Source: Candidatus Moraniibacteriota bacterium (GTDB taxonomy: Bacteria > Patescibacteriota > Minisyncoccia > Moranbacterales > GCA-2747515). From it: DNA of 18,642 bases. Where the stretch lies: contig JALXES010000057.1 in NCBI GenBank assembly GCA_027069365.1, positions 1-18,642 of the forward strand, in the 5' to 3' direction. The notes below the pieces were generated by a model. The model worked only from the letters and a program-made list of their open reading frames with translations. It was not told where the DNA came from and searched no databases. Shown here one piece after another: positions 1,320 through 14,227 of the stretch; position 1 is the first letter of the stretch; each line of letters opens with the position of its first letter. Both the position numbers and the translations under genes were made by a program.

Positions 1320-2156
1320 CTACTGTTGCACATCACGATTGGAGCGAATCCAGTCAATGTAGCCACTGTTGAGTGTCTGCGCCGTCAAAAAGTTGAGATC
1401 GTAGAGTTGTACGCCACCGCGAAAGCTGTCAATGGACGTTTCACCATAGACGATGATGCGCTTTGTTGCCGGGAGGGAATCATAGGTGCGCTCAAGGTCC
1501 GGCAGAGGGATGTTGATGGCGTAGGGAATGTGCCCGCGCTCAAACTGTGCTCGTGGGCGTATGTCAAGGATAATGTCCCGGCGATTGGTGCCGGCTTGCT
1601 TTGCGGCAATAATATCGTCAAGTTCCTCCGGCGTGACATAGCTTATCTTTGCCGCGTCAACGACGGATTGCGGGTCGCCGGCAGACAACAGTGGCGGATT
1701 GACAGCGTTCCATGTAGAAATACCGCCGGAGAGAGCAACAACGTAGTCATTTTGCTTCTCAAAAATTTTGATTGCTTGCGAGATGAGGCCCGCATTAAGT
1801 TCATCAAAAACAACAACAACCATGTCAACATTGTAGCGAGGAGCAACGTTTCCTTTGATGAGGTCATCAAGAGGGATGTTGACAGAGCCAACAATGTGCT
1901 GGCGAGCAAATTCATTTGCCGGTCGTACGTCAACAAGTTTGACGCTATCAGGCTTGTTGCGAATTTTCCGCCGGATAACATCTGTTGTCACCTCTGTATA
2001 GTCATAGTCAATATAGGCCTCCGGATCAAGGTCGCTCGTGAGCGCAGCGTAATCCGTGTCAGCGCTCTTCTGAGCCGTGCGCATGAGCGAAAGGAGGACA
2101 ATAATGAGAATGAGGAATGTTCCGGCAGTAAAGATTGTTTTGTTTGAGATGTACAT
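1320..2156 (-). CDS. membrane-anchored tandem rhodanese-domain protein, no catalytic cysteines
   Basis: 278 residues: an N-terminal transmembrane segment (about residues 9-25) followed by two rhodanese-like domains (about 52-155 and 173-272). Each domain keeps the CDC25/rhodanese landmark of strand plus DxRxxxxFxxxHI (D76-R78 with HIVGSVNIP; D198-R200 with HIPYAINIP). The active-site loop, which normally reads C-x-x-G-x-R/S, has lost its cysteine in both: VVVVF at F117 and RIIVYG at G238. The whole protein contains no cysteine. Classical sulfurtransferase chemistry is therefore not possible. A binding, scaffold or redox-independent role outside the membrane is more likely (inference). It is the last gene of the minus-strand operon, 27 bases after fmt, and ends at the bidirectional terminator. 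The fold call is firm; the function is unknown. Confidence 0.85.
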   Translation of the reverse strand: MYISNKTIFTAGTFLILIIVLLSLMRTAQKSADTDYAALTSDLDPEAYIDYDYTEVTTDVIRRKIRNKPDSVKLVDVRPANEFARQHIVGSVNIPLDDLIKGNVAPRYNVDMVVVVFDELNAGLISQAIKIFEKQNDYVVALSGGISTWNAVNPPLLSAGDPQSVVDAAKISYVTPEELDDIIAAKQAGTNRRDIILDIRPRAQFERGHIPYAINIPLPDLERTYDSLPATKRIIVYGETSIDSFRGGVQLYDLNFLTAQTLNSGYIDWIRSNRDVQQ

Positions 2157-2183
2157 AGCAATGTGATAATCGTTTCTTCCATA

Positions 2184-3161
2184 CTACCACATTTCACCGA
2201 GACGTGCAGTGTTGATATCGGGATAGCCGTTAACAAATGCGCGTGCGTCCATGTCGTTCTTGCCCTGTAGTTGCACGCGCTTCACAACAAGCGCACCGTC
2301 GGCTGTGGCGACACACAACGGGTGCGTGTCTGTGCTAAAGACGGTCCCGGGCATATGACGTGGTGCGTCCATGCACGGCCTAATGTCGGTAAGCTTGAGA
2401 CGTAGCGGCGTGTTTGCCGCGTCGCGATGCCATAGTGTAAATATGCCCGGCCACGGGTCATAGGCGCGGAATTGGTTGTAGATGGATTGCGTTGTGTCGT
2501 GCCAATTGATATGCCCATCATCACGCGTTAGCGTGCGACATGTTGTCACGCCATGCGTGCTCTGAGGCTGTGGGACGCGTGCACCGCGGAGATAGTCGGG
2601 TAATACTTCCACCAAGAGACGTGCACCATCATCAGCCAAGAGCGCAAAGAGTTCCGGCGTGTGCATGTGGGGCGTGATGGCGCGCGATTTTTGGGCGATG
2701 ATGGGCCCGGTGTCCAACCCGGCATCCATACGCATGATTGTCACGCCGGTTTGCGTGTCACCCGCACGAATGGCGGCATGGATGGGTGAGGCACCGCGCC
2801 AGCGTGGCAGCAGGGAAGCGTGCACGTTAACACAGCCGTGCCGCGGCAAATCCAAGACACTCTGTGGCAGAATGTTGCCATAGGCGGCAACGATGATGAT
2901 GTCCGGCGCCAGACTGCGAAGGGTAGCGAGGGTGTCGGCATCAGAGAGGCGCCCGGCCGGGTCGTGGACGGGGATGGCGTGGCGCTCTGCACGTGCGCGC
3001 ACGGGATTGGGTACGGCCTTTGTGCGACTGCGGCCGTGCACGCTCAGGGGCTTGGTGTAGACGGCGACGACGGAGTAGTTTGCTGCGATGAGTACCGCAA
3101 GAGAGGGTGCGGCAAACTCACCGGTCCCCATAAAAACGATGCGTGGTGCGGATGGTGTCAT
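2184..3161 (-). CDS. fmt: methionyl-tRNA formyltransferase
   Basis: 325 residues, the normal length. It transfers a formyl group from 10-formyl-tetrahydrofolate to initiator Met-tRNA in the cytoplasm. The N-terminal Rossmann-like domain begins RIVFMGTGEFAAPSL. The catalytic triad expected from E. coli N108/H110/D146 is seen as N112 and H114 (NVHASLLPRWRGASPI) and D150 (DAGLDTGP). The folate-loop sequence AAYGNILPQ is at 92-100. A C-terminal OB-like domain (about 205-320) completes the family architecture. It starts 12 bases after the def stop, in the classic def-fmt order. The only slight oddity is the lack of a visible Shine-Dalgarno before the ATG. Confidence 0.97.
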   Translation of the reverse strand: MTPSAPRIVFMGTGEFAAPSLAVLIAANYSVVAVYTKPLSVHGRSRTKAVPNPVRARAERHAIPVHDPAGRLSDADTLATLRSLAPDIIIVAAYGNILPQSVLDLPRHGCVNVHASLLPRWRGASPIHAAIRAGDTQTGVTIMRMDAGLDTGPIIAQKSRAITPHMHTPELFALLADDGARLLVEVLPDYLRGARVPQPQSTHGVTTCRTLTRDDGHINWHDTTQSIYNQFRAYDPWPGIFTLWHRDAANTPLRLKLTDIRPCMDAPRHMPGTVFSTDTHPLCVATADGALVVKRVQLQGKNDMDARAFVNGYPDINTARLGEMW

Positions 3162-3173
3162 ACGGTGAAACTA

Positions 3174-3704
3174 TTAGCCGATGCGATGTGTTGTGGCGGT
3201 GTCATCAACTTCGTGAAACTGCGCGCGCAGTGATGACTGCTGCGCGTAGCGGTCGGTCATCAGAATGCCGTCCAAATGGTCAATTTCGTGCTGAAACGCC
3301 ACGGCCAGGAGGTCGTCAGCGGCAATGGTGTGGCGCTGTCCTTGCGTATCATAGTAGCGTACGCTGACGCGTTCACTGCGCACAACAGGAACGAACTCAC
3401 CGGGAATGGACAGGCAGCCCTCCTCGGTCATGACCAACGCGCGAGACGCCGTGGTGATGACGGGATTGATGCACACAAGCGGTGTGCGCGCCGTGCGTCC
3501 ATCCGGCCCGATGTCAAAAACGACTATGCGCTGATGCACATTAACCTGCGGTGCGGCCAATCCGATGCCGCGCTCAGCGCGCATGACAGCAATCATATCA
3601 TCCACAAGAGCACGCACTGCCGGCGCTGTCGGATCCGCAACGCGCTGTGACGAGCGGTGCAAGTCCTCCAAATGGCCGTTGATTGTAATGAGTGTATGCG
3701 GCAT
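3174..3704 (-). CDS. def: peptide deformylase
   Basis: 176 residues. It removes the N-formyl group from nascent proteins, the reverse partner of Fmt encoded just downstream. All three family motifs are intact: motif 1 GIGLAAPQV (46-54), motif 2 EGCLSIPG (95-102) with metal ligand C97, and motif 3 QHEIDHLDG (138-146) with ligands H139 and H143 and catalytic E140. It lies 69 bases downstream of priA on the same strand. That gap is wide enough for a separate promoter, but I find no convincing -35/-10 pair in it. Start chosen: the ATG giving MPHTLITING; an out-of-frame ATG lies 5 bases upstream. Confidence 0.97.
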   Translation of the reverse strand: MPHTLITINGHLEDLHRSSQRVADPTAPAVRALVDDMIAVMRAERGIGLAAPQVNVHQRIVVFDIGPDGRTARTPLVCINPVITTASRALVMTEEGCLSIPGEFVPVVRSERVSVRYYDTQGQRHTIAADDLLAVAFQHEIDHLDGILMTDRYAQQSSLRAQFHEVDDTATTHRIG

Positions 3705-5852: not shown

Positions 5853-6443
5853 ATGGGGGGTATGGAAGAGACGCGACGGCTCTTTGTGGGTGTGACACTG
5901 CCGCATGACGTGGTGACGATTATCCGCAAACGTGAGCAACAACTTATGCGTACGTATCCGGACTTACCGGTGCGCTGGACGCCGCTGGAAAATCTCCACA
6001 TGACGGTGAGTTTTTTGGGACACGTGCAGGATGCGCGCTTGCCGGAGCTCATCACTGCACTGGAGAACGCTGTGCGCACGTGTGCGTCGTTTGACATGGT
6101 CTTTGACCGCTGGATGCTTGGTCCTTCGGCGGCGCAGCCAAAGATGGTGTGGCTCGGCACAGACACGCCCAGTGCCCCGCTTGGCGCGCTTACAACAGCG
6201 GTTGCGCGCGTTGTGGCACCGTTGCACCCACCGCGCGGCGCCTATCGCCCACACGTGACGCTGGGGCGTATTGCGCAGAAGCGGTACCGTGCGCTTGATG
6301 AGGTGCCGTCCATAGAGTGCACAACATCATTGGTTGTCATGGTAGACCATGTGACGCTTTTTGAGAGCACGGTTGTGGACGGTACGCGCGCCTTTGTGCC
6401 GCTGGCAACATGTGAATTGGATACAACACGTCATGCAACCTAA
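5853..6443 (+). CDS. thpR: RNA 2',3'-cyclic phosphodiesterase / 2'-5' RNA ligase family
   Basis: 196 residues, typical for the LigT/ThpR branch of the 2H phosphoesterase superfamily. The two catalytic H-x-T-x motifs are HMTVSFLG (H49, T51) and HVTLGRI (H134, T136), separated by the usual 85 residues or so. The N-terminus RLFVGVTLP is typical of the family. Known members hydrolyse 2',3'-cyclic phosphate RNA ends and can join 2'-5' linkages in vitro; the in vivo target is unclear. It is divergent from priA, with 63 bases between start codons. A second in-frame ATG at 5862 (MEETRRLF) is equally plausible. The 3' end overlaps the next gene by 11 bases, so the two are probably translationally coupled. 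Confidence 0.93.
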   Translation: MGGMEETRRLFVGVTLPHDVVTIIRKREQQLMRTYPDLPVRWTPLENLHMTVSFLGHVQDARLPELITALENAVRTCASFDMVFDRWMLGPSAAQPKMVWLGTDTPSAPLGALTTAVARVVAPLHPPRGAYRPHVTLGRIAQKRYRALDEVPSIECTTSLVVMVDHVTLFESTVVDGTRAFVPLATCELDTTRHAT

Positions 6444-7215
6444 GACACACGCTACAAATGTGAGGAAACGTGCGTGGCGCACATCCTTGACGCTTGCGCT
6501 TGGCGGGAGCGTCATTATCATTGTTGCTGCGTGGCATACGCCGCGTGTGGCTACGGTGCGGCAGATGGCAGCGTGCTCGGTAAAAGCGCCCGGTGAGCAT
6601 ACGTCGGACGTACCGGATGGGGCGCCGTGGCGTGAGGCGCGTATATTGCGCAGCATGCCACCGCCGGGCTACAGTGCCGGTGCGGCGTGGTTGACAGCAG
6701 CCACGACAACGCCATGTCTGCCGTTACGTGCACATGCGCAAATTGATATCGCTGCACTCCGCGTGGTGGGTGTGCAGCGTGATGGTACAGAGCGTATCGT
6801 TTTTGAAGCAGACTTTGCGCGTGATGGCAATGCACACCTAGACGCCGGCCTCTACACACGCTATCCAACGTGGTTTGCAACAGACCGCCACACACCGCTT
6901 GCTGTGTCAACTGTTGCCGGTGCATGGACGCTTGATCTGGCACGTTACCCATACAGCGTCATTCATGCGTGGACGCCACGTTTCGCAGTGACACAGGGAG
7001 TGCGATACGTTGTGGAGGCGCGTGTGCGCGTCAGTGGTGCCGCACGCCTTCAGTTCGGGCTGGATTTTTGGCGGGACTTCCGCGTGGCACACAACGGCTT
7101 TGATGAGTTTTGTCGCGGAACAAACAACTGTGAAGCACATGTCGGTCCATGGATTGGTGACACGCACGGTGCGTTCATGACAGTGCGGTCGGTGTCTGAC
7201 CAGATAGCAAGGTAG
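6433..7215 (+). CDS. unknown membrane-anchored extracytoplasmic protein
   Basis: I do not recognise a family. Start chosen: ATG 6433, because it puts a basic n-region (K4, R11, K12, R13, R16) directly before a transmembrane segment (about residues 19-34). Longer in-frame starts back to 6361 would lie well inside thpR. The 260-residue product then has a Pro/Ala-rich stretch (about 52-90) and a C-terminal, probably all-beta region (about 100-255). Alternating strands such as RYVVEARVRVSG and RLQFGLDFWRDF are reminiscent of carbohydrate-binding beta sandwiches. Four cysteines (48, 95, 227, 233) could form disulfides outside the cell. It overlaps thpR by 11 bases and precedes the surface GH-like protein, which has its own promoter. 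A link to that protein is positional inference only. Confidence 0.7.
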   Translation: MQPKTHATNVRKRAWRTSLTLALGGSVIIIVAAWHTPRVATVRQMAACSVKAPGEHTSDVPDGAPWREARILRSMPPPGYSAGAAWLTAATTTPCLPLRAHAQIDIAALRVVGVQRDGTERIVFEADFARDGNAHLDAGLYTRYPTWFATDRHTPLAVSTVAGAWTLDLARYPYSVIHAWTPRFAVTQGVRYVVEARVRVSGAARLQFGLDFWRDFRVAHNGFDEFCRGTNNCEAHVGPWIGDTHGAFMTVRSVSDQIAR

Positions 7216-7220
7216 AAATG

Positions 7221-7231
7221 TATGGTATACT
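7221..7231 (+). promoter_or_regulatory. extended -10 promoter for the first GH-A-like surface protein
   Basis: TATGGTATACT, with -10 TATACT at 7226-7231 and TG-G extension. It is identical to the element before the paralogous gene at 10617. The predicted leader is about 45 bases. No convincing -35 is present. Confidence 0.6.
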
Positions 7232-7282
7232 ATGCGTAAAGATGTCCACGTTCTAACAATCGCTAAAAACAAATAAGATAAT

Positions 7283-9388
7283 ATGGAAGCACTCCTCAAT
7301 CAACTCATACAAATCATTCTTGCGCTCATTACACTTGTGTCAAGCTATGTCGTGACGACAAGCGCTGTGACAAATACGTCATCACAAGCAGCAAATACGC
7401 AACAACAGTCAATGGTTGCTGCCACCACCGGGTCGCAGAGTGGGGCTGCGAGCACGACGGCGGCCGCACCGGCGGCGCCAACGTCTGTATCCGGTGGAAC
7501 ATCTGGTAGCGCTGCAGCAAGTACGAGCACGACAACGACCGCATCATCAGGCGGTGGCGGTTCGTCAGTAGCTATTGGTGGCGTCACGACGATTACTCTT
7601 GCCAACGGCGGTGGCTCCAATACAACGTTTGGCACGGGACCAATGCAAATCGGTATTAATGATGCATGGATGATCTATGGCGGGATTTACAGTGCGGCAG
7701 GGTGGAGCCCGACGTTAATTGAACACCTCAAGAGCGTGCCGTATGCTGCATTTCGGTTTATGAACTTCAATGGTAACGGTGGAAATGTGCCATTCCAGGT
7801 AGGCGAGCTTGGCGCGATGCCCAGTGGTGGTCCGGATGGGACATGGGCAGGACGTGTAAAGCCGGGAGAAATTCGTCCGGACAGCAATGGTGACTCCGGA
7901 CTTATCTCCTATGAGGCACAAATTGAACTGTGCAACAAAGCGCAGGTGGATTGTTGGATTAGTGTGCCTGCAAAAAGCGATCAAGAGGCAGACTATTCTG
8001 TGAAATTAGCGAAACTTGTCAAGGAGAAGCTAGATTCTTCGCGAAAGGTGTATGTGGAGTGGGCCAATGAGTCATGGAACTTCTTGGGTGGACTGTATGC
8101 GGCGGAGTATGCCGTAGCACGTGGCAAGCAGATGGGACTGTCCGGGGGAGATAGTGGATTGTATGGTATGGGATTTCAGTACACAGCGTGCGCCGGCGCA
8201 CAGCTCTGGAGTGGATTTGAGAGTGTCTTTACCGGTGCGGATCGCAACCGTTTGGTGACAGTGTTGTCAGGGCAATTTGGCGACCCCAATGATCCAAACA
8301 TCTACCTTCTGCGGACGCACTTTGATGCTTTGAAAGATGCAAAATGCAACCCCAACGGTGTGATGCCGGACGCCTATGCGATTGCACCGTATTTTGATGG
8401 TACGACAGGACAACTTGGTGCTTATGATACGGCACTTCAGGCATTTGAGGACGCCCTCCCTGATGGTGTATCCCTCGTGACATATGAGGGCGGCACAGAA
8501 AAGACGTATGACTACAATGCGTACTATGAGTACTTAAATGTGCTCTCCAAACACGTGAAGCTCTTCATGGCGTACAACCTCAATCAGCCGACATGGGGTG
8601 TTGCCAACGAAGACCTCAGTGATACACCACGTCTCAAAGCAATCCGAGACTGGCTGGCAAAGAACGGAACAGGGACAGGTGTGAGTGGTGGAACTGCCGC
8701 AGCAGCCAGCACAACCACCGCCGGCACAACCACCACTGCAGCAACAACGACGGGAGCGGCAACAGGTAGCACGACGAGTGGTACAGCAACGAGCGCTGCC
8801 GGGACAGGGAGCGCCACCACGGCGACAGCGAGTGCTACAGGGGGGACGATTACCAATGCCGGGACCGGTGCCAGCGCACAAAATACCGGCACGGATGGAT
8901 TTACTGCCGATGCCGGCGGTGCGTCTACACTACATGGAGAGCACTGGGACTACTGTGGTCCGACAGTGGAGACGTGGGATGTGCCATGTATCCGTCAGGG
9001 TGTGTCCGGGACATTTACAAACATTGCCAAGGGCAATGGCCCCGGGACGCTGCAGTTGTCAATCTTTGGTGACCACGACAGTGAGCCGCCGGGAGAGGAT
9101 GATGAGTGGATTCGCGTCATGGTGGATGATGTTGACCTCGGACTGATTTTCAACCACACTGTGGCGGACGACCGGTTCAACTTTACGCCGGAAATGGGCA
9201 GTAACGGTGACTGGGGAAATCTGAAGGAGCGTGAAGTCTCCAGTACAGCGCAGTTGACGGCAGATGAAATTGCGCGCATCACGGCAGATGGAACGGTAAC
9301 GGTACGCTTTGACTTTGTGGGGGACAGTCACAACAATTTCCAGTATGTGCCGGCAGAAGAGTACATCAAGTGGACGTTGAGTTATTAG
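7283..9388 (+). CDS. surface-anchored GH-A-clan-like protein with C-terminal beta domain
   Basis: 701 residues; the start is fixed by an in-frame stop 9 bases upstream. Architecture: hydrophobic anchor (about 6-24), Ser/Thr/Ala/Gly linker (about 25-118), core (about 119-461), second Thr/Ala/Gly linker (about 463-538), C-terminal beta-rich domain (541-701). The core shows the strand pattern of a clan GH-A (beta/alpha)8 barrel: QIGIN, FRFMNFN (Arg after strand 2), [17 protein letters not shown] with N262-E263 as putative acid/base, TVLSG, AIAPY, LVTYEGG with E402 as putative nucleophile, and [11 protein letters not shown]. That Asn-Glu plus later Glu pairing is the clan signature, so a retaining glycosidase on an extracellular glycan is the leading guess. 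The substrate cannot be read from the sequence. The C-terminal domain may bind sugar. There is no Lys or Arg before residue 150, which is unusual for an anchored protein. Confidence 0.8.
8219..8253 (+). repeat. 35-bp exact direct repeat within paralogous genes (copy 1)
   Basis: It is identical to 11580-11614 and encodes the same [11 protein letters not shown] stretch in both surface proteins. Flanking bases are also similar. Silent differences elsewhere between the paralogs make this perfectly conserved block stand out. Confidence 0.9.
8669..8902 (+). repeat. low-complexity Thr/Ala/Gly linker-coding segment
   Basis: Codes about 78 residues dominated by Thr, Ala, Gly and Ser, with runs of ACN/GCN codons. 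It separates the GH-like core from the C-terminal beta domain and is absent from the shorter paralog. Composition suggests a flexible, possibly O-glycosylated spacer prone to slippage in length. Confidence 0.75.
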
Positions 9389-9408
9389 GCAGAGACGCAG
9401 GGGATATG

Positions 9409-9446
9409 CACACACCAGCACGCTTGTGGCAGCGTGCTGGTGTGTG
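9409..9446. other. perfect 15-bp hairpin between GH-like gene and epimerase
   Basis: The arms CACACACCAGCACGC (9409-9423) and its exact complement (9432-9446) enclose an 8-base loop. No T-run follows on either strand, so it is not a standard intrinsic terminator. It overlaps the predicted epimerase promoter: the loop carries the candidate -35 and the 3' arm the spacer. It could be an attenuating structure at the end of the upstream mRNA or an operator. Confidence 0.8.
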
Positions 9447-9453
9447 GTAAGAT
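9424..9453 (+). promoter_or_regulatory. candidate promoter for the epimerase
   Basis: TTGTGG (9424-9429) and TAAGAT (9448-9453) are spaced by 18 bases, with TGTGG directly before the -10 as in other promoters of this window. It overlaps the 15-bp hairpin. Moderate match only. Confidence 0.4.
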
Positions 9454-9486
9454 GGTGAGGAAACAATTCATAAAGAACTCATTTGT

Positions 9487-10473
9487 ATGACGAAGGTGTT
9501 GATTACCGGCGGGGCCGGCTTTATCGGGAGTGCATGCGCAAAGGCGTTGATGGACCGCGGTGATAAGGTGGTACTCGTTGACAATTTCAATGATTACTAT
9601 GACCCGCAACTCAAGGAGGATCGCATTGCAAAGTTCTTGAAGGGGTATCGCAACAAGCGCGGAGAAGATAAGAAGGGAAAATTTACGCTGTACAGGGCGG
9701 ATATTGGTGATGTTACGCGCATGGAGCGTATTTTTGCAAAAGAAAAACCGCACAAGGTTATTCACTTGGCAGCGATGGCCGGTGTGCGCGCATCACTGGA
9801 GGATCCGCTGCGCTATGTTGACGTGAATGTGTTAGGGACAACAAACCTCTTGACGCTTGCCGTTAAGTACAAGGTTAAGAACTTTGTGTATGCGTCCAGT
9901 TCCAGTGTGTACGGCGGGAACACCAAGGTGCCGTTTAGCGAGAAGGACCCCGTGGATCGGCCTGTCTCACCCTACGCAGCAACCAAAAAAGCAACAGAAC
10001 TTCTGGCGCATACGTTTAGTCACTTGTACGGACTCAAGACAACGGGCCTGCGCTATTTCACCGTCTACGGTCCGTGGGGACGTCCGGATATGGGTGTGTT
10101 TACGTTTCCCGAGCGCATCATGCGCGGCCAGACGATTGACGTATACAACCGCGGAGACATGGAGCGCAACTTCACATACATTGATGACATTGTTTCCGGG
10201 ACACTGACGGTGCTGGATGCTAACTTGGATTATGATGTGATAAATATCGGTGGCGACCGCACGGTAAAACTGATGGATTTCATCGCTGAGACGGAGAAGG
10301 CACTTGGTATCAAAGCCAAGAAACGCTTGCTGCCAATGCAGCCGGGTGATGTCAAAGTCACATCGGCCAATATTCGCAAATTGCGTGCGCTGGGGTGGCG
10401 CCCGACAACACGCATAGAGCAGGGCATCCCGGCATTCATTGCGTGGTACAAGGAGTATTACAAAGACGCATAG
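9487..10473 (+). CDS. NAD-dependent epimerase, UDP-glucuronate 4-epimerase-like (extended SDR)
   Basis: 328 residues of the extended short-chain dehydrogenase type. The NAD-binding Rossmann motif GGAGFIG is at residues 8-14. D32 in LVDNFNDYYD marks NAD rather than NADP preference. The catalytic set is Ser/Thr in YASSSSVYGG (about 135-144) and the YxxxK pair in YAATKKATELL (about 163-173). The NDYYD segment, RYFTVYGPWGRPDMG and the RNFTYIDDIV motif are characteristic of the UDP-glucuronate 4-epimerase (CapI/LpsL-like) subgroup, which makes UDP-galacturonate for surface polysaccharides. A UDP-glucose/galactose specificity cannot be excluded. It sits between the two GH-like paralogs on the same strand, pointing to a role in envelope or exported glycan synthesis (inference). 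Confidence 0.9.
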   Translation: MTKVLITGGAGFIGSACAKALMDRGDKVVLVDNFNDYYDPQLKEDRIAKFLKGYRNKRGEDKKGKFTLYRADIGDVTRMERIFAKEKPHKVIHLAAMAGVRASLEDPLRYVDVNVLGTTNLLTLAVKYKVKNFVYASSSSVYGGNTKVPFSEKDPVDRPVSPYAATKKATELLAHTFSHLYGLKTTGLRYFTVYGPWGRPDMGVFTFPERIMRGQTIDVYNRGDMERNFTYIDDIVSGTLTVLDANLDYDVINIGGDRTVKLMDFIAETEKALGIKAKKRLLPMQPGDVKVTSANIRKLRALGWRPTTRIEQGIPAFIAWYKEYYKDA

Positions 10474-10547
10474 CGGGTTGTGCAAGAGCGTAAATATGCC
10501 TTAGTGGAAAGGGGTGTGTGTGGCGGCATGGCTTGTGGGGGAATACA

Positions 10548-10558
10548 TATGGTATACT
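10548..10558 (+). promoter_or_regulatory. extended -10 promoter for the second GH-A-like surface protein
   Basis: TATGGTATACT, with -10 TATACT at 10553-10558, identical over 11 bases to the element before the first paralog. The predicted leader is about 52 bases. The -35 is poor. Confidence 0.6.
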
Positions 10559-10616
10559 GAAACAAAGAGAACTGTGCGCGTGTTGTGCGTGCACAAACAC
10601 TAAACAAAAGATATCT

Positions 10617-12023
10617 ATGGAGGCAATCCTCAGTCAGCTTATACAGATCGTCCTTGCACTCATTACGCTGATTTCCAGTTACATGGTAACAACAACTGCT
10701 GTTTCGCAAACGGCAACGACTGCGGCGAGCGGCGCAACAACACAACAGCGATCAGCTGTTGTCGCACAGACTGGAGCAGCTGCGCAACATCAGAGCGCTG
10801 CCTCGCAGGCTGCTGCGCCGACGGCGCCAACGTCTGTGTCCGGTGGCACCACCGCATCACAGACATCATCAACAACAAACGCAGCAGCGCAGACGCGCAC
10901 AGCTGCGACTGGCGGCGGGACGTCTGTGGCTGTTGCGGGCGTGACGTCGCTGACGACGAGCTCTAGCGGTGGCACCGCAGCGACCACAACCGGTGGCACA
11001 ACGACAACAGTTGCCAATGGTGGCGGATCCAATACAACGCTCGGTGCAGGACCGATGCAGATCGGCATCAATGATACCTGGGAGGTTTATGGAGGCATTT
11101 ACGGTGGTGGACTGACGTGGAGCGGTGCACTGGTCGAACATCTCAAGAGTGTGCCATACAGCGTATTCCGGTTTATGAACTTCAATGGCAATGGTGCGCA
11201 AATCCCGGATGGTGGACCGGAGGAGACGTGGGCAACACGCGTACCGGCCGGAGAGACGCAAGGTGTACGCATCTCCTATGAGGCGCAGATTGCGCTGTGC
11301 AACCAGGCCAAAATTGATTGCTGGATTAGTGTGCCGGCAAAGACGGACAAAGATCCCACATTTGCCCCAAGCCTCGCAAAACTTGTCAAAGAGCAATTGG
11401 ATCCCTCGCTCAAGGTGTACATCGAGTGGTCCAATGAAGCGTGGAATGATGGTGGGTATAGCGCCGGCTATGCGGCACGCCGTGCGCGTGAAATGGGATT
11501 TACAGCAGATGATACGTCAGATTATGTCATGAGCATGATGTATGCACCGTGTGCAGCCGCACAGCTCTGGAGCGGATTCGAGAGTGTCTTTACCGGTGCG
11601 GATCGCAACCGTTTAGTGACGGTACTCTCCGGGCATGCAACAGGGGATAACTGGTGGAATGAACAAGCGATTAAGCGCTTGGATGACCCGAAGTGCAATC
11701 CAAATGGCTTGCACCCTGATGTGTTTGCAACGGCACCGTACTTTGGTGGGAGTGCCAGCGATGCAGATGCATTGGAGCCGAGCTTCAAAAAACTGCGCGA
11801 GGTTGTCCCGGACGATATTGCTCTTGTGACCTATGAAGGCGGTACGTGGGAGGCGTATGATTACGACGGGTACTACCACTATTTGGATGTTCTGTCAAAA
11901 TATTTCACACTCTTTATGGCATACAACCTCAATCAGCCGACGTATGGCGTTGCCAACGAAGATCTCAGTGATACGCCGCGCCTGAAAGCAATTCGTGATT
12001 GGTTGGCAAAGAATGCACAATAA
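10617..12023 (+). CDS. surface-anchored GH-A-clan-like protein, short paralog
   Basis: 468 residues. ATG 10617 is chosen because the product then starts [12 protein letters not shown], aligned with the first paralog; the open frame extends upstream past the promoter. Of the first 29 residues, 23 are identical to the paralog. Architecture: hydrophobic anchor (about 6-24), Ser/Thr/Ala/Gln-rich linker (about 25-144), GH-A-like core (about 145-465), then stop, with no second linker or C-terminal beta domain. The putative catalytic pair is conserved: N273-E274 in [10 protein letters not shown] and E407 in LVTYEGG. The barrel-end strand reads NQPTYGV where the paralog has NQPTWGV, so a position often occupied by an aromatic stacking residue is Tyr instead of Trp. 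It is probably a tandem duplication, with different glycan reach or specificity (inference). Confidence 0.8.
11580..11614 (+). repeat. 35-bp exact direct repeat within paralogous genes (copy 2)
   Basis: It is identical to 8219-8253, about 3.36 kb apart in direct orientation. Recombination between the copies would delete the epimerase and fuse the two GH-like genes in frame, since both copies code the same residues. Confidence 0.9.
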
Positions 12024-12085: not shown

Positions 12086-12703
12086 ATGGGAACAATTCTG
12101 CGCAGCGCACTGATTGTGTTGGCAATTGCTGCTGCTGTCAGCGGCGCAACGACAGCGTATTTCAGTGACAGCGAAACAAGTCACAATAACACCTTTACAG
12201 CAGGGACGCTGGACCTCGCGGTGGATGGTGAAAATCCACTGGCGCATGCGAAATTCGCCGTAACAAATATGCATCCTGGTGAGAGCACACAAGGCATCTA
12301 CCGCTTGACAAATACCGGCAGTATTGATGGCTATGTAGATATTGCGTCACTAACAGTGACATCACAGGAGAATGGCTGCAACGAGCCGGAAACGACAGCG
12401 GGAGATGCAACGTGCGGCACACCGGGTGCCGGCGAGGGGGAATTGGCGCAGTTTATACAGGTACAGCTGTTTGAAGACGCAGGGTGCGACGGCGCTGTCT
12501 CAAGTGGAGACACTGTCTTTTACAGTGGTCTCGTCAAGGATGTGCCGAGCAGTTTTGAGTTAAACACAGCACTTGCTGCCGGTGGTGCGCTGTGTATCTC
12601 TGCGCGGTTTGACTGGCCGAGCACAGCACAGGACAATCTCGCGCAGGGTGACGGTATGCAGCTTGATCTGGCCTTTGAGCTTGCGCAGACAACAGCACAG
12701 TAG
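12086..12703 (+). CDS. TasA/camelysin (CalY)-family secreted fibre-type protein
   Basis: 205 residues. The N-terminus is a SipW-type signal: a hydrophobic stretch (about 7-19), then the hallmark GATTAYFSDSE (20-30) and NNTFTAGTLDL (34-44), which follow the cleavage site in TasA/camelysin proteins. The rest is a beta-sandwich with the family's internal pattern (LTNTGSIDGYVDI at about 74-86 and the closing NLAQGDGMQLDLAFEL). Four cysteines (98, 110, 134, 170) suggest two disulfides, which Bacillus TasA lacks. Relatives assemble into extracellular fibres or act as surface metalloproteases; no HExxH motif is present here, which favours a structural role. The gene for its likely dedicated signal peptidase starts 9 bases downstream. 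The family is secure; fibre formation is inference. Confidence 0.9.
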   Translation: MGTILRSALIVLAIAAAVSGATTAYFSDSETSHNNTFTAGTLDLAVDGENPLAHAKFAVTNMHPGESTQGIYRLTNTGSIDGYVDIASLTVTSQENGCNEPETTAGDATCGTPGAGEGELAQFIQVQLFEDAGCDGAVSSGDTVFYSGLVKDVPSSFELNTALAAGGALCISARFDWPSTAQDNLAQGDGMQLDLAFELAQTTAQ

Positions 12704-12712
12704 GCGCACGCT

Positions 12713-13243
12713 ATGAACGTCTCACGTATTTTTCGCGGTATCCAGTACGTTATTGTCGCACTCATTGTCGCGCTGGGAGTGTTGCTGGGCGCAAGCGCTG
12801 TGCCGCTATTCGGTAAGTACGGCGTCTATACAGTGCTCTCGGGCTCCATGGCGCCGACAATCAGCACGGGTAGTATTGTTGTGGTACGTCCCCAAGAGAC
12901 ATACACGCGCGGTGATGTTATCACTGCAAAGAGCGGTGACCCGCACCGACCAGTCACGCACCGTATTGTGGATGTGACACCGGAAGGCTTTGTCACACAG
13001 GGTGATGCCAATGCCGCTCCCGACAGCATCGTGCGCGCACCCAAGGACGTGCTGGGGCGCGTGGTATTTCACGTGCCACTTGTTGGCTATCCCATTGCTT
13101 GGGTGCAAACGCCGCAGGGCTTTATCTTTTTGCTCGTCATCCCATCGGTGCTTATTGTATACCATGAGATTTTGTCCATGGCGACGACGCTTGAGAAAAC
13201 ACTACGCCAACGGACACGACGCACGCATGCGCAGCGGGAGTAG
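12713..13243 (+). CDS. signal peptidase I, SipW/ER type (Ser-His)
   Basis: 176 residues with an N-terminal membrane segment (about 10-30) and a C-terminal one (about 136-155), the SipW topology. The catalytic region reads VLSGSMAPTI, with nucleophile S45. The second catalytic residue is H83 in VTHRIVDV, replacing the Lys of ordinary bacterial signal peptidases. The acidic box is GDANAAPD (D98, D104). These are the features of the archaeal/ER-like S26B group. It should cleave the TasA-like protein encoded 9 bases upstream, as SipW does for TasA in Bacillus. The C-terminus is strongly basic (RQRTRRTHAQRE) on the presumed cytoplasmic side. Not given the symbol sipW, because other S26B peptidases look alike. 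Confidence 0.92.
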   Translation: MNVSRIFRGIQYVIVALIVALGVLLGASAVPLFGKYGVYTVLSGSMAPTISTGSIVVVRPQETYTRGDVITAKSGDPHRPVTHRIVDVTPEGFVTQGDANAAPDSIVRAPKDVLGRVVFHVPLVGYPIAWVQTPQGFIFLLVIPSVLIVYHEILSMATTLEKTLRQRTRRTHAQRE

Positions 13244-13321: not shown

Positions 13322-14227
13322 ATGAGATCGTACAACCGAACAACTTCATGGCGCTCTCTGATGGTGGCGCTGGTGTGCGCGTGCATACTGTTTGCAGCAC
13401 CGGCACACGCACAAGTAGCGATTGACGTGTCGTGGGGACGTCACGAGCGTGTTTTTAATGAGCGCAATATTGCACCGGGAACACAGGTACGTCACACAAT
13501 CACCGTCACAAATGCGGGTGATGTACAGGACGTGTATCTCACGCTCCGGCACGTGCGTGGGCGCGCGCTTGCGCGGCACTTGCGCGTGGCGCTGATTGAG
13601 AAAAAGACCGGCGCGTACCTCATCGGTGGTCCGGGTGAACGTATGACGGTGCACCAACTGGCCGCCGCGAAGCATGTGTTTGTACAGCGGCTGGGTGCTG
13701 GTGAGCGCCGCCGTTATACACTTCTTGTAACGTTTGACAAGGATGCCGGCAATACTTTGCAGGGCGCCTCTACGCGTTTTGATCTCACGTTTGGCGTGAC
13801 CGGTGAACCGGTGTCACCCAGTGCGCCATTGCCGCGACGTCACACACCTGGTGCTGCAGCGCACAGAGGTGATGTGTTGGGTGCGGAGACAGTCGTGGAT
13901 GACGACGTGCAGGATGCGGTGGTGCTGGGTGCCGATGGTGTGGCGCGGCGCGCGGATGCTGTTGTGTGCGCCGGATGGGAGCGTCTGGCGTGGCTTATTG
14001 GTTTACTTGTGTTCAGCGGACTTGTGGTACTGACAGTGCGCCGCACACGTGCCGCGCGCAGAGCTGACGGCACAGTGTTGCGCGCACCGGTAGTGGTACT
14101 TTTGCTTTTCAGCATGCTTCTGTTTGTGGCGTGGTTTGTGATTGCGCAGTGTCCGACGACGTGGTGGTTCCCATTGGGTGTGCTGGCGGGGAGCCTTGTT
14201 GCAATCACAGTGCAGCGCAGGCCATAG
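13322..14227 (+). CDS. secreted TasA-like-domain protein with C-terminal membrane segments
   Basis: 301 residues. A conventional Sec signal peptide ends AAPAHA-QV (predicted cleavage after residue 30). It is followed by one beta-sandwich domain (about 31-162) whose start (NIAPGTQVRHTITVTNAGDVQDVYLTL is the region 49-75) and end (AGNTLQGASTRFDLTFG, 142-158) echo the TasA/camelysin fold. A Pro/Asp-rich spacer (163-215) contains two VLGA(E/D) motifs. Three predicted transmembrane helices follow (about 222-239, 255-275, 281-298). No member of this exact architecture is known to me. Lying 78 bases after the signal peptidase on the same strand, it could anchor or nucleate fibres of the TasA-like protein at the cell surface, as TapA does in Bacillus by a different structure (inference). 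Confidence 0.75.
   Translation: MRSYNRTTSWRSLMVALVCACILFAAPAHAQVAIDVSWGRHERVFNERNIAPGTQVRHTITVTNAGDVQDVYLTLRHVRGRALARHLRVALIEKKTGAYLIGGPGERMTVHQLAAAKHVFVQRLGAGERRRYTLLVTFDKDAGNTLQGASTRFDLTFGVTGEPVSPSAPLPRRHTPGAAAHRGDVLGAETVVDDDVQDAVVLGADGVARRADAVVCAGWERLAWLIGLLVFSGLVVLTVRRTRAARRADGTVLRAPVVVLLLFSMLLFVAWFVIAQCPTTWWFPLGVLAGSLVAITVQRRP

Follow-up and report, generated by a model that had tools for sequence, protein, structure and literature searches.

What would a patescibacterium do with two related, apparently anchored proteins encoded on either side of a sugar-nucleotide epimerase gene? The question is raised by an 18.6-kb stretch of DNA (18,642 nucleotides of contig JALXES010000057.1 of a Candidatus Moraniibacteriota bacterium; henceforth the window), which is part of a 749-kb genome assembly of 128 contigs with an estimated completeness of ~92%. 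In the list of open reading frames, gene A (7283..9388, + strand; 701 amino acids) and gene B (10617..12023, +; 468 amino acids) lie on the same strand with the epimerase gene (9487..10473, +) between them. The explanation that we favor as a whole, and hold to be likely, is that A and B are surface-held enzymes of glycoside hydrolase (GH) clan GH-A, whose task would be the trimming of a polysaccharide at the cell boundary, plausibly one bearing uronic acids.

Predicted catalytic cores of A and B

A and B are 54% identical over 488 aligned positions (E 7e-165), so that their likeness is not due to chance, and they have an anchor, a linker and a core in common, much as an earlier note on this DNA had described them. 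We place the start of B at the ATG at 10617 rather than at the mechanical GTG at 10518, which restores the same start as in A (MEAI/MEAL). The predicted catalytic cores span residues 122–461 of A (7646..8665, +; from alignments) and residues 143–468 of B (11043..12020, +). The latter was modelled as a (beta/alpha)8 barrel with eight strands alternating with helices (pLDDT 87.9); its best structural neighbors are GH51 enzymes, with further likeness to GH39 and GH5, families missing from the structural match lists not being thereby excluded. In this model an Asn-Glu pair (N262-E263 in A, N273-E274 in B) is at the end of strand 4 and a later Glu (E402 and E407, respectively) at the end of strand 7, as assigned by DSSP. 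The earlier note had named exactly these residues and had foreseen a clan GH-A barrel with this strand order; the model, a TIM barrel with GH51 as the closest family, agrees on both counts. The loss of either Glu in homologs, for which that note suggested looking, is not seen: both, together with the Asn and an Arg of strand 2, are invariant in 127/127 aligned sequences, which comprise A, B and 125 database proteins from the listed matches rather than all 1060 relatives described below (P0001 and P0005 were dropped, being identical or almost identical to B and A).

In retaining glycosidases of clan GH-A, the Glu after strand 4 is the acid/base and the Glu after strand 7 the nucleophile; E263/E274 and E402/E407 would take these respective parts in a retaining glycosidase or transglycosidase. 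We accordingly predict that A and B are retaining glycosidases of clan GH-A, in a family as yet without a name; that they are clan GH-A enzymes active on a glycan seems to us very likely. The invariant residues also bear on a different role, in which A and B would be non-catalytic glycan-binding pseudo-enzymes for adhesion. The predicted surface display, the adhesin-like spacer and a symbiotic lifestyle, presumed from the small genome, would suit such proteins, but the retention of all four residues throughout the alignment makes this role quite improbable.

Among known enzymes, the GH51 alpha-L-arabinofuranosidases, themselves of clan GH-A, have the closest fold, with 12–16% identity among the matches listed and only part of their ~490-residue chains aligning to the core. 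The GH39 beta-xylosidases and the beta-glucuronidase/heparanase structures, which we take to be of the GH79 type, likewise belong to clan GH-A, are mostly 10–12% identical and give no sequence-level match; leech hyaluronidase, which falls within the same comparison, is 14% identical to the core.

The suspicion that the cores match no named GH family is borne out in Pfam, NCBIfam and the PDB sequences. Neither core has a matching model in Pfam or NCBIfam, the two matches above E 0.3 lying in the spacers; in Pfam, B matches nothing up to E 1, and all that A gives is a chance match of its linker. Twelve family members scanned against Pfam yielded just DUF488 and DUF5767, in one member each (best E 0.26), and the Pfam scans gave no family-model match for GH39, GH79, GH5, GH30 or other families with Pfam models. 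Searched against PDB sequences, a 12-sequence family profile found no solved relative up to E 10, GH51 chains included, and nothing else over that range save one chance glycosyltransferase stretch. The same profile retrieved 1060 proteins at E 1e-3 or better (8000 candidates scored), and none of the 120 that were listed carries a Pfam domain that we recognize as a glycosidase's. Two peptide patterns run against species genomes returned 302 stretches, of which 271 encode a relative; the taxonomic spread, as read from the titles in the 80 stretches kept, takes in Myxococcales, Gammaproteobacteria such as Thiothrix, Planctomycetota, Verrucomicrobia, Paenibacillus, cyanobacteria and others. By these searches the cores constitute a large, widespread family without a Pfam or NCBIfam model, although we do not claim a new CAZy family. 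With more than 1000 database hits, catalytic carboxylates invariant in every sequence checked and no model found in either collection, it lends itself readily to the definition of a new glycosidase family. Within the accessible parts of the open-licence literature we found neither the core family nor any anchored glycosidase of this lineage described, which is a weak negative.

Beyond the core, A has a C-terminal domain (residues 548–701; 8924..9385, +) that is mostly beta in a low-confidence model (pLDDT 58) and was found in three proteins by a protein search. The Foldseek matches are beta-sandwiches of diverse kinds, among them phage, virus-coat, lectin, BcsB and carbohydrate-binding module (CBM) entries, and with so weak a model and so mixed a list we claim no identity for the domain; it would perhaps be carbohydrate-binding.

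The anchor and its carriers

Residues 1–30 of A (7283..7372, +; without Lys or Arg) and of B (10617..10706, +) form an N-terminal hydrophobic anchor, with best 19-mer Kyte-Doolittle values of 2.08 and 2.06, respectively. Both proteins have a spacer made up mostly of T, A, S and G (91 residues in A, 117 in B) and a linker motif, SVAIGGVT in A (7565..7588, +), which is found in other anchored proteins too, and SVAVAGVT in B (10923..10946, +). The first 140 residues hold no Lys or Arg in A and two Arg in B. Signal peptides are seldom so poor in these residues, which is why surface anchoring is put as a prediction. The cell would export A and B and hold both via the short hydrophobic helix and the long, almost uncharged spacer; we think it quite likely that they are held at the outer surface.

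Built from eight known carriers and P0009, a profile of the N-terminal 36 residues found four proteins in the window genome and four in G012, the closest searched relative and a member of the same genus, all at E 2.1e-16 or better, as is to be expected of the carriers that built it. The profile adds no ninth carrier; of the 118 further genomes searched in the order, 114 have no match and four have one doubtful partial match each (E 0.016–0.039). The carriers in the window genome are A, B, a third GH-A paralog and a beta-helix protein, and those in G012 are a B-type GH, the third paralog, another GH-A protein (P0017) and a beta-helix protein; all eight (8/8) have a predicted carbohydrate-active domain, either GH-A or beta-helix (lyase-like). 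The third paralog of the window genome (G000:C63 (L105), 6996–8792, − strand) lies between genes for an M17 aminopeptidase and an M16-like peptidase (by eye) and has its counterpart at the equivalent place in G012. The parallel beta-helix protein (G000:C100 (L106), 1405–3207, −), encoded outside the window, matches DUF5123 below its cut-off, and has a full-length relative on contig C13 of G012 (54% identity) and partial matches in two others of the taxonomic family's 17 genomes. The N-terminal part of its helix resembles PL9-type rhamnogalacturonan lyase (5olq)/Pel9A; the match to 5olq is limited to ~55 residues, where the xylosidase 3vst matches too.

The anchor is present in 14/127 database proteins and, as the carriers P0009, P0025 and P0038 may come from elsewhere, need not be strictly genus-private. 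On a tree of 62 chosen proteins, built by a quick method and with an outgroup that does not form one side of a branch, the anchor label needs at least four changes, three of them forced by well supported branches, be they gains or losses. The linker motif SVAIGGVT and its variants, a pattern written after examples had been seen, occur in the linker of 11 of the 17 distinct anchored proteins, including the beta-helix protein on C100; P0003, P0004, P0006, P0007, P0020 and the G012 C13 protein have no match to the pattern, the last showing a looser variant by eye. P0025 and P0038, which are anchored GH-A proteins of different branches, are both on contigs of 8217 bases and are perhaps another tandem pair.

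To our knowledge, the means by which Patescibacteria pass the glycan layers of their hosts are still largely an open question. A tentative and on present evidence rather unlikely proposal is that this genus uses a nearly private N-terminal display module (anchor helix, uncharged spacer and often a linker motif) into which glycan-cutting domains differing in fold are plugged, namely GH-A cores of several branches (at least one of which, A/B, apparently came from Proteobacteria) and a lyase-like beta helix; with these, an ultrasmall, presumably host-dependent cell would open or remodel an acidic glycan layer facing its host. A surface-tethered enzyme set that is all but confined to one genus, and possibly linked to uronic-acid metabolism, offers concrete proteins and substrates to test, and the anchor itself is a sequence handle by which the remainder of the set may be found.

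The epimerase and the candidate substrate

The protein encoded between A and B is an NAD-dependent sugar-nucleotide epimerase of the short-chain dehydrogenase/reductase (SDR) type, with the YxxxK motif (Y163/K167) and the Gly-rich NAD motif. It shares with UDP-glucuronate 4-epimerases (6zl6 and relatives, and MoeE5, 6kv9) the SDR fold, YxxxK and an RPDM motif with an equivalent of Arg185; R199 of the window protein aligns with Arg185 of 6zl6, which we take to be the Bacillus cereus UDP-glucuronate 4-epimerase. Arg185 of the B. cereus enzyme is reported to bind the C5 carboxylate of the product (PMC12338863). The alignment has no Arg at this position in the UDP-glucose 4-epimerase chain 4zrm. 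The best PDB match is 5u4q, named by its depositors as a dTDP-glucose dehydratase, i.e., another activity, and none of the best 25 of 111 NCBIfam matches reaches its cut-off. The likeness to UDP-glucuronate 4-epimerase claimed in the earlier note thus stands, and the enzyme probably makes UDP-galacturonate from UDP-glucuronate. The window genome also has a GT2-Ugd-GT4 set on contig C20, Ugd being the UDP-glucose dehydrogenase-type gene, and with the epimerase and Ugd genes the route from UDP-glucose via UDP-glucuronate to UDP-galacturonate is probably encoded. In a relative, G008, an epimerase copy is followed by genes for a UDP-glucuronate decarboxylase (E 4e-104 to 4gll), GT2, a UDP-glucose dehydrogenase-type enzyme and GT4, a cluster that indirectly favors the predicted interconversion of UDP-glucuronate and UDP-galacturonate.

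Identical 11-base elements before the two paralogs had been put forward as a further sign of a module. The elements do exist: TATGGTATACT, which resembles an extended −10 promoter, lies upstream of both A (7221..7231, +) and B (10548..10558, +), and with one mismatch allowed there are three matches against 0.07 expected. They are not specific to the locus, however. The genome has four exact copies, the other two preceding an enolase-like gene (by eye) and the glycosyltransferase-Ugd cluster on C20, and the core of the element, TGGTATACT, has 38 occurrences genome-wide, compared with 5 for a reversed control; TATGGTATACT is thus a general promoter and was rejected as a sign of a regulon or module. 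A plain sigma-70 scan picks a different site just before A (7253–7282) and finds 10 sites between 6900 and 12200 against 4.5 in shuffles. Between A and the epimerase is a perfect 16-bp hairpin without a T-run (9409..9446, +), whose last bases are overlapped by a TGGTAAGAT box upstream of the epimerase (by eye). Given this hairpin and the separate promoter-like boxes for A, the epimerase and B, one operon is unlikely, and the three are probably separate transcripts.

A uronic-acid-bearing substrate is made plausible by the product of the epimerase, by the cell's own UDP-glucose dehydrogenase as its feed and by the co-anchored, rhamnogalacturonan-lyase-like beta helix; taken by itself, we see this substrate as possible but somewhat doubtful. 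Several observations weigh against it and favor the alternative that the same enzymes act on a substrate unrelated to uronic acids, the epimerase being a chance neighbor that serves envelope glycan synthesis and A/B cutting a neutral host or biofilm polymer (arabinan-, xylan- or glucan-like). Close copies of the epimerase (65% identity or more) are found in 6/17 genomes of the taxonomic family, four of which have no GH, and Ugd-type genes are present in 17/17 (16 over the cut-off), with or without a GH. Moreover, A, the epimerase and B are probably not one transcript, the fold likeness is to GH51, GH39 and GH5, and the neighborhoods of 12 relatives are varied with no common partner (by eye). 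On the other hand, the epimerase has a GH beside it in each of the two genomes of the genus, even though the genes downstream differ between them, and the best match of the co-anchored beta-helix protein is a rhamnogalacturonan lyase, over a short stretch. The recurrence of the paralog-epimerase arrangement in related genomes, which had been proposed as a check, is partial: the adjacency is seen in G012, which has only the B-type of the two types, and is missing in the four genomes just mentioned. We give the neutral polymer a substantial chance, a little short of even.

A further alternative is that A and B are biosynthesis-associated hydrolases that, during export, remodel exopolysaccharide or capsule made by the cell itself, and not a foreign glycan. 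This would fit the GT2-Ugd-GT4 genes of the window genome and a distant relative in Desulfobacter vibrioformis that lies within an apparent exopolysaccharide gene cluster (by eye, from N-termini). Yet no polysaccharide export gene was recognized beside A/B in the window, and several different enzymes on one anchor in a 0.75-Mb genome suggest degradation or boundary trimming; we regard a role in export as conceivable, though less probable than not. Under the preferred reading of A and B as trimming enzymes of the cell boundary, the chances that the glycan is the host's rather than the cell's own are about even.

In G011 (L129), a six-hairpin glycosidase-like gene (1527–2588, +; PF17389 and PF06202 over their cut-offs) is directly upstream of the epimerase copy; this genome gave no match to the GH-A family.

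Origin of the pair and its surroundings

The GH family is found in 2/17 genomes of the taxonomic family and 3/128 of the order; in one of these three, the match covers part of a 1032-residue protein. A tree of 39 chosen proteins groups A with P0006 and P0007 (99/99), and B with P0002, P0003 and P0004 (100/100). As P0003 and P0006 are both on contigs of 54,808 bases, and P0004 and P0007 both on contigs of 72,167, the A/B pair is probably present in two further genomes; together with the separation of the A-type and B-type groups, this places the duplication before these lineages parted. A Myxococcales protein is sister to the A/B group (98/94), and the surrounding clade, as far as its members are named, is from Gammaproteobacteria (P0012, P0014 and P0023); the simplest reading of the tree is that A/B were acquired from Proteobacteria.

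The nearest non-anchored relatives of named source are in Myxococcales and Gammaproteobacteria, as would also be expected if the GH genes were on a misbinned proteobacterial contig. However, the gene order LigT-unknown protein-GH-epimerase is kept on contig C18 of G012, an independent genome of the genus (its LigT copy recognized by eye), as is the position of the third paralog, and clear anchor matches are confined to this genus among 120 genomes; we consider such contamination of the assembly exceedingly improbable. In the window, the LigT-type RNA 2',3'-cyclic phosphodiesterase that serves as synteny marker is at 5853..6443 (+; TIGR02258, 98.2 bits, cut-off 65.7). The conserved protein directly upstream of A (6361..7215, +) has an N-terminal hydrophobic segment and a mechanical TTG start, the true start being probably later; Pfam gives nothing for it up to E 1, and it is 46% identical over 248 positions to the product of the gene at the equivalent place in G012. 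By eye, its second half resembles a beta-rich carbohydrate-binding domain.

The stretch directly downstream of B (12086–13243, +) encodes a TasA/camelysin-like protein whose signal is SipW-dependent (TIGR04088, 35.3 bits, cut-off 19; PF12389) and, after it, an archaeal/SipW-type signal peptidase (TIGR02228, 96.7 bits, cut-off 51.85); neither is beside the GH in G012. The former is possibly a surface fibre of this bacterium. After the signal peptidase comes a gene for a 301-residue protein (13322–14227, +) without a Pfam or NCBIfam match better than E 0.5; it has hydrophobic segments near its C-terminus (by eye) and perhaps belongs to the TasA-like system. Elsewhere in the window, a gene at 1320–2156 (−) encodes a protein with two rhodanese-domain stretches and, by eye, an N-terminal hydrophobic segment.

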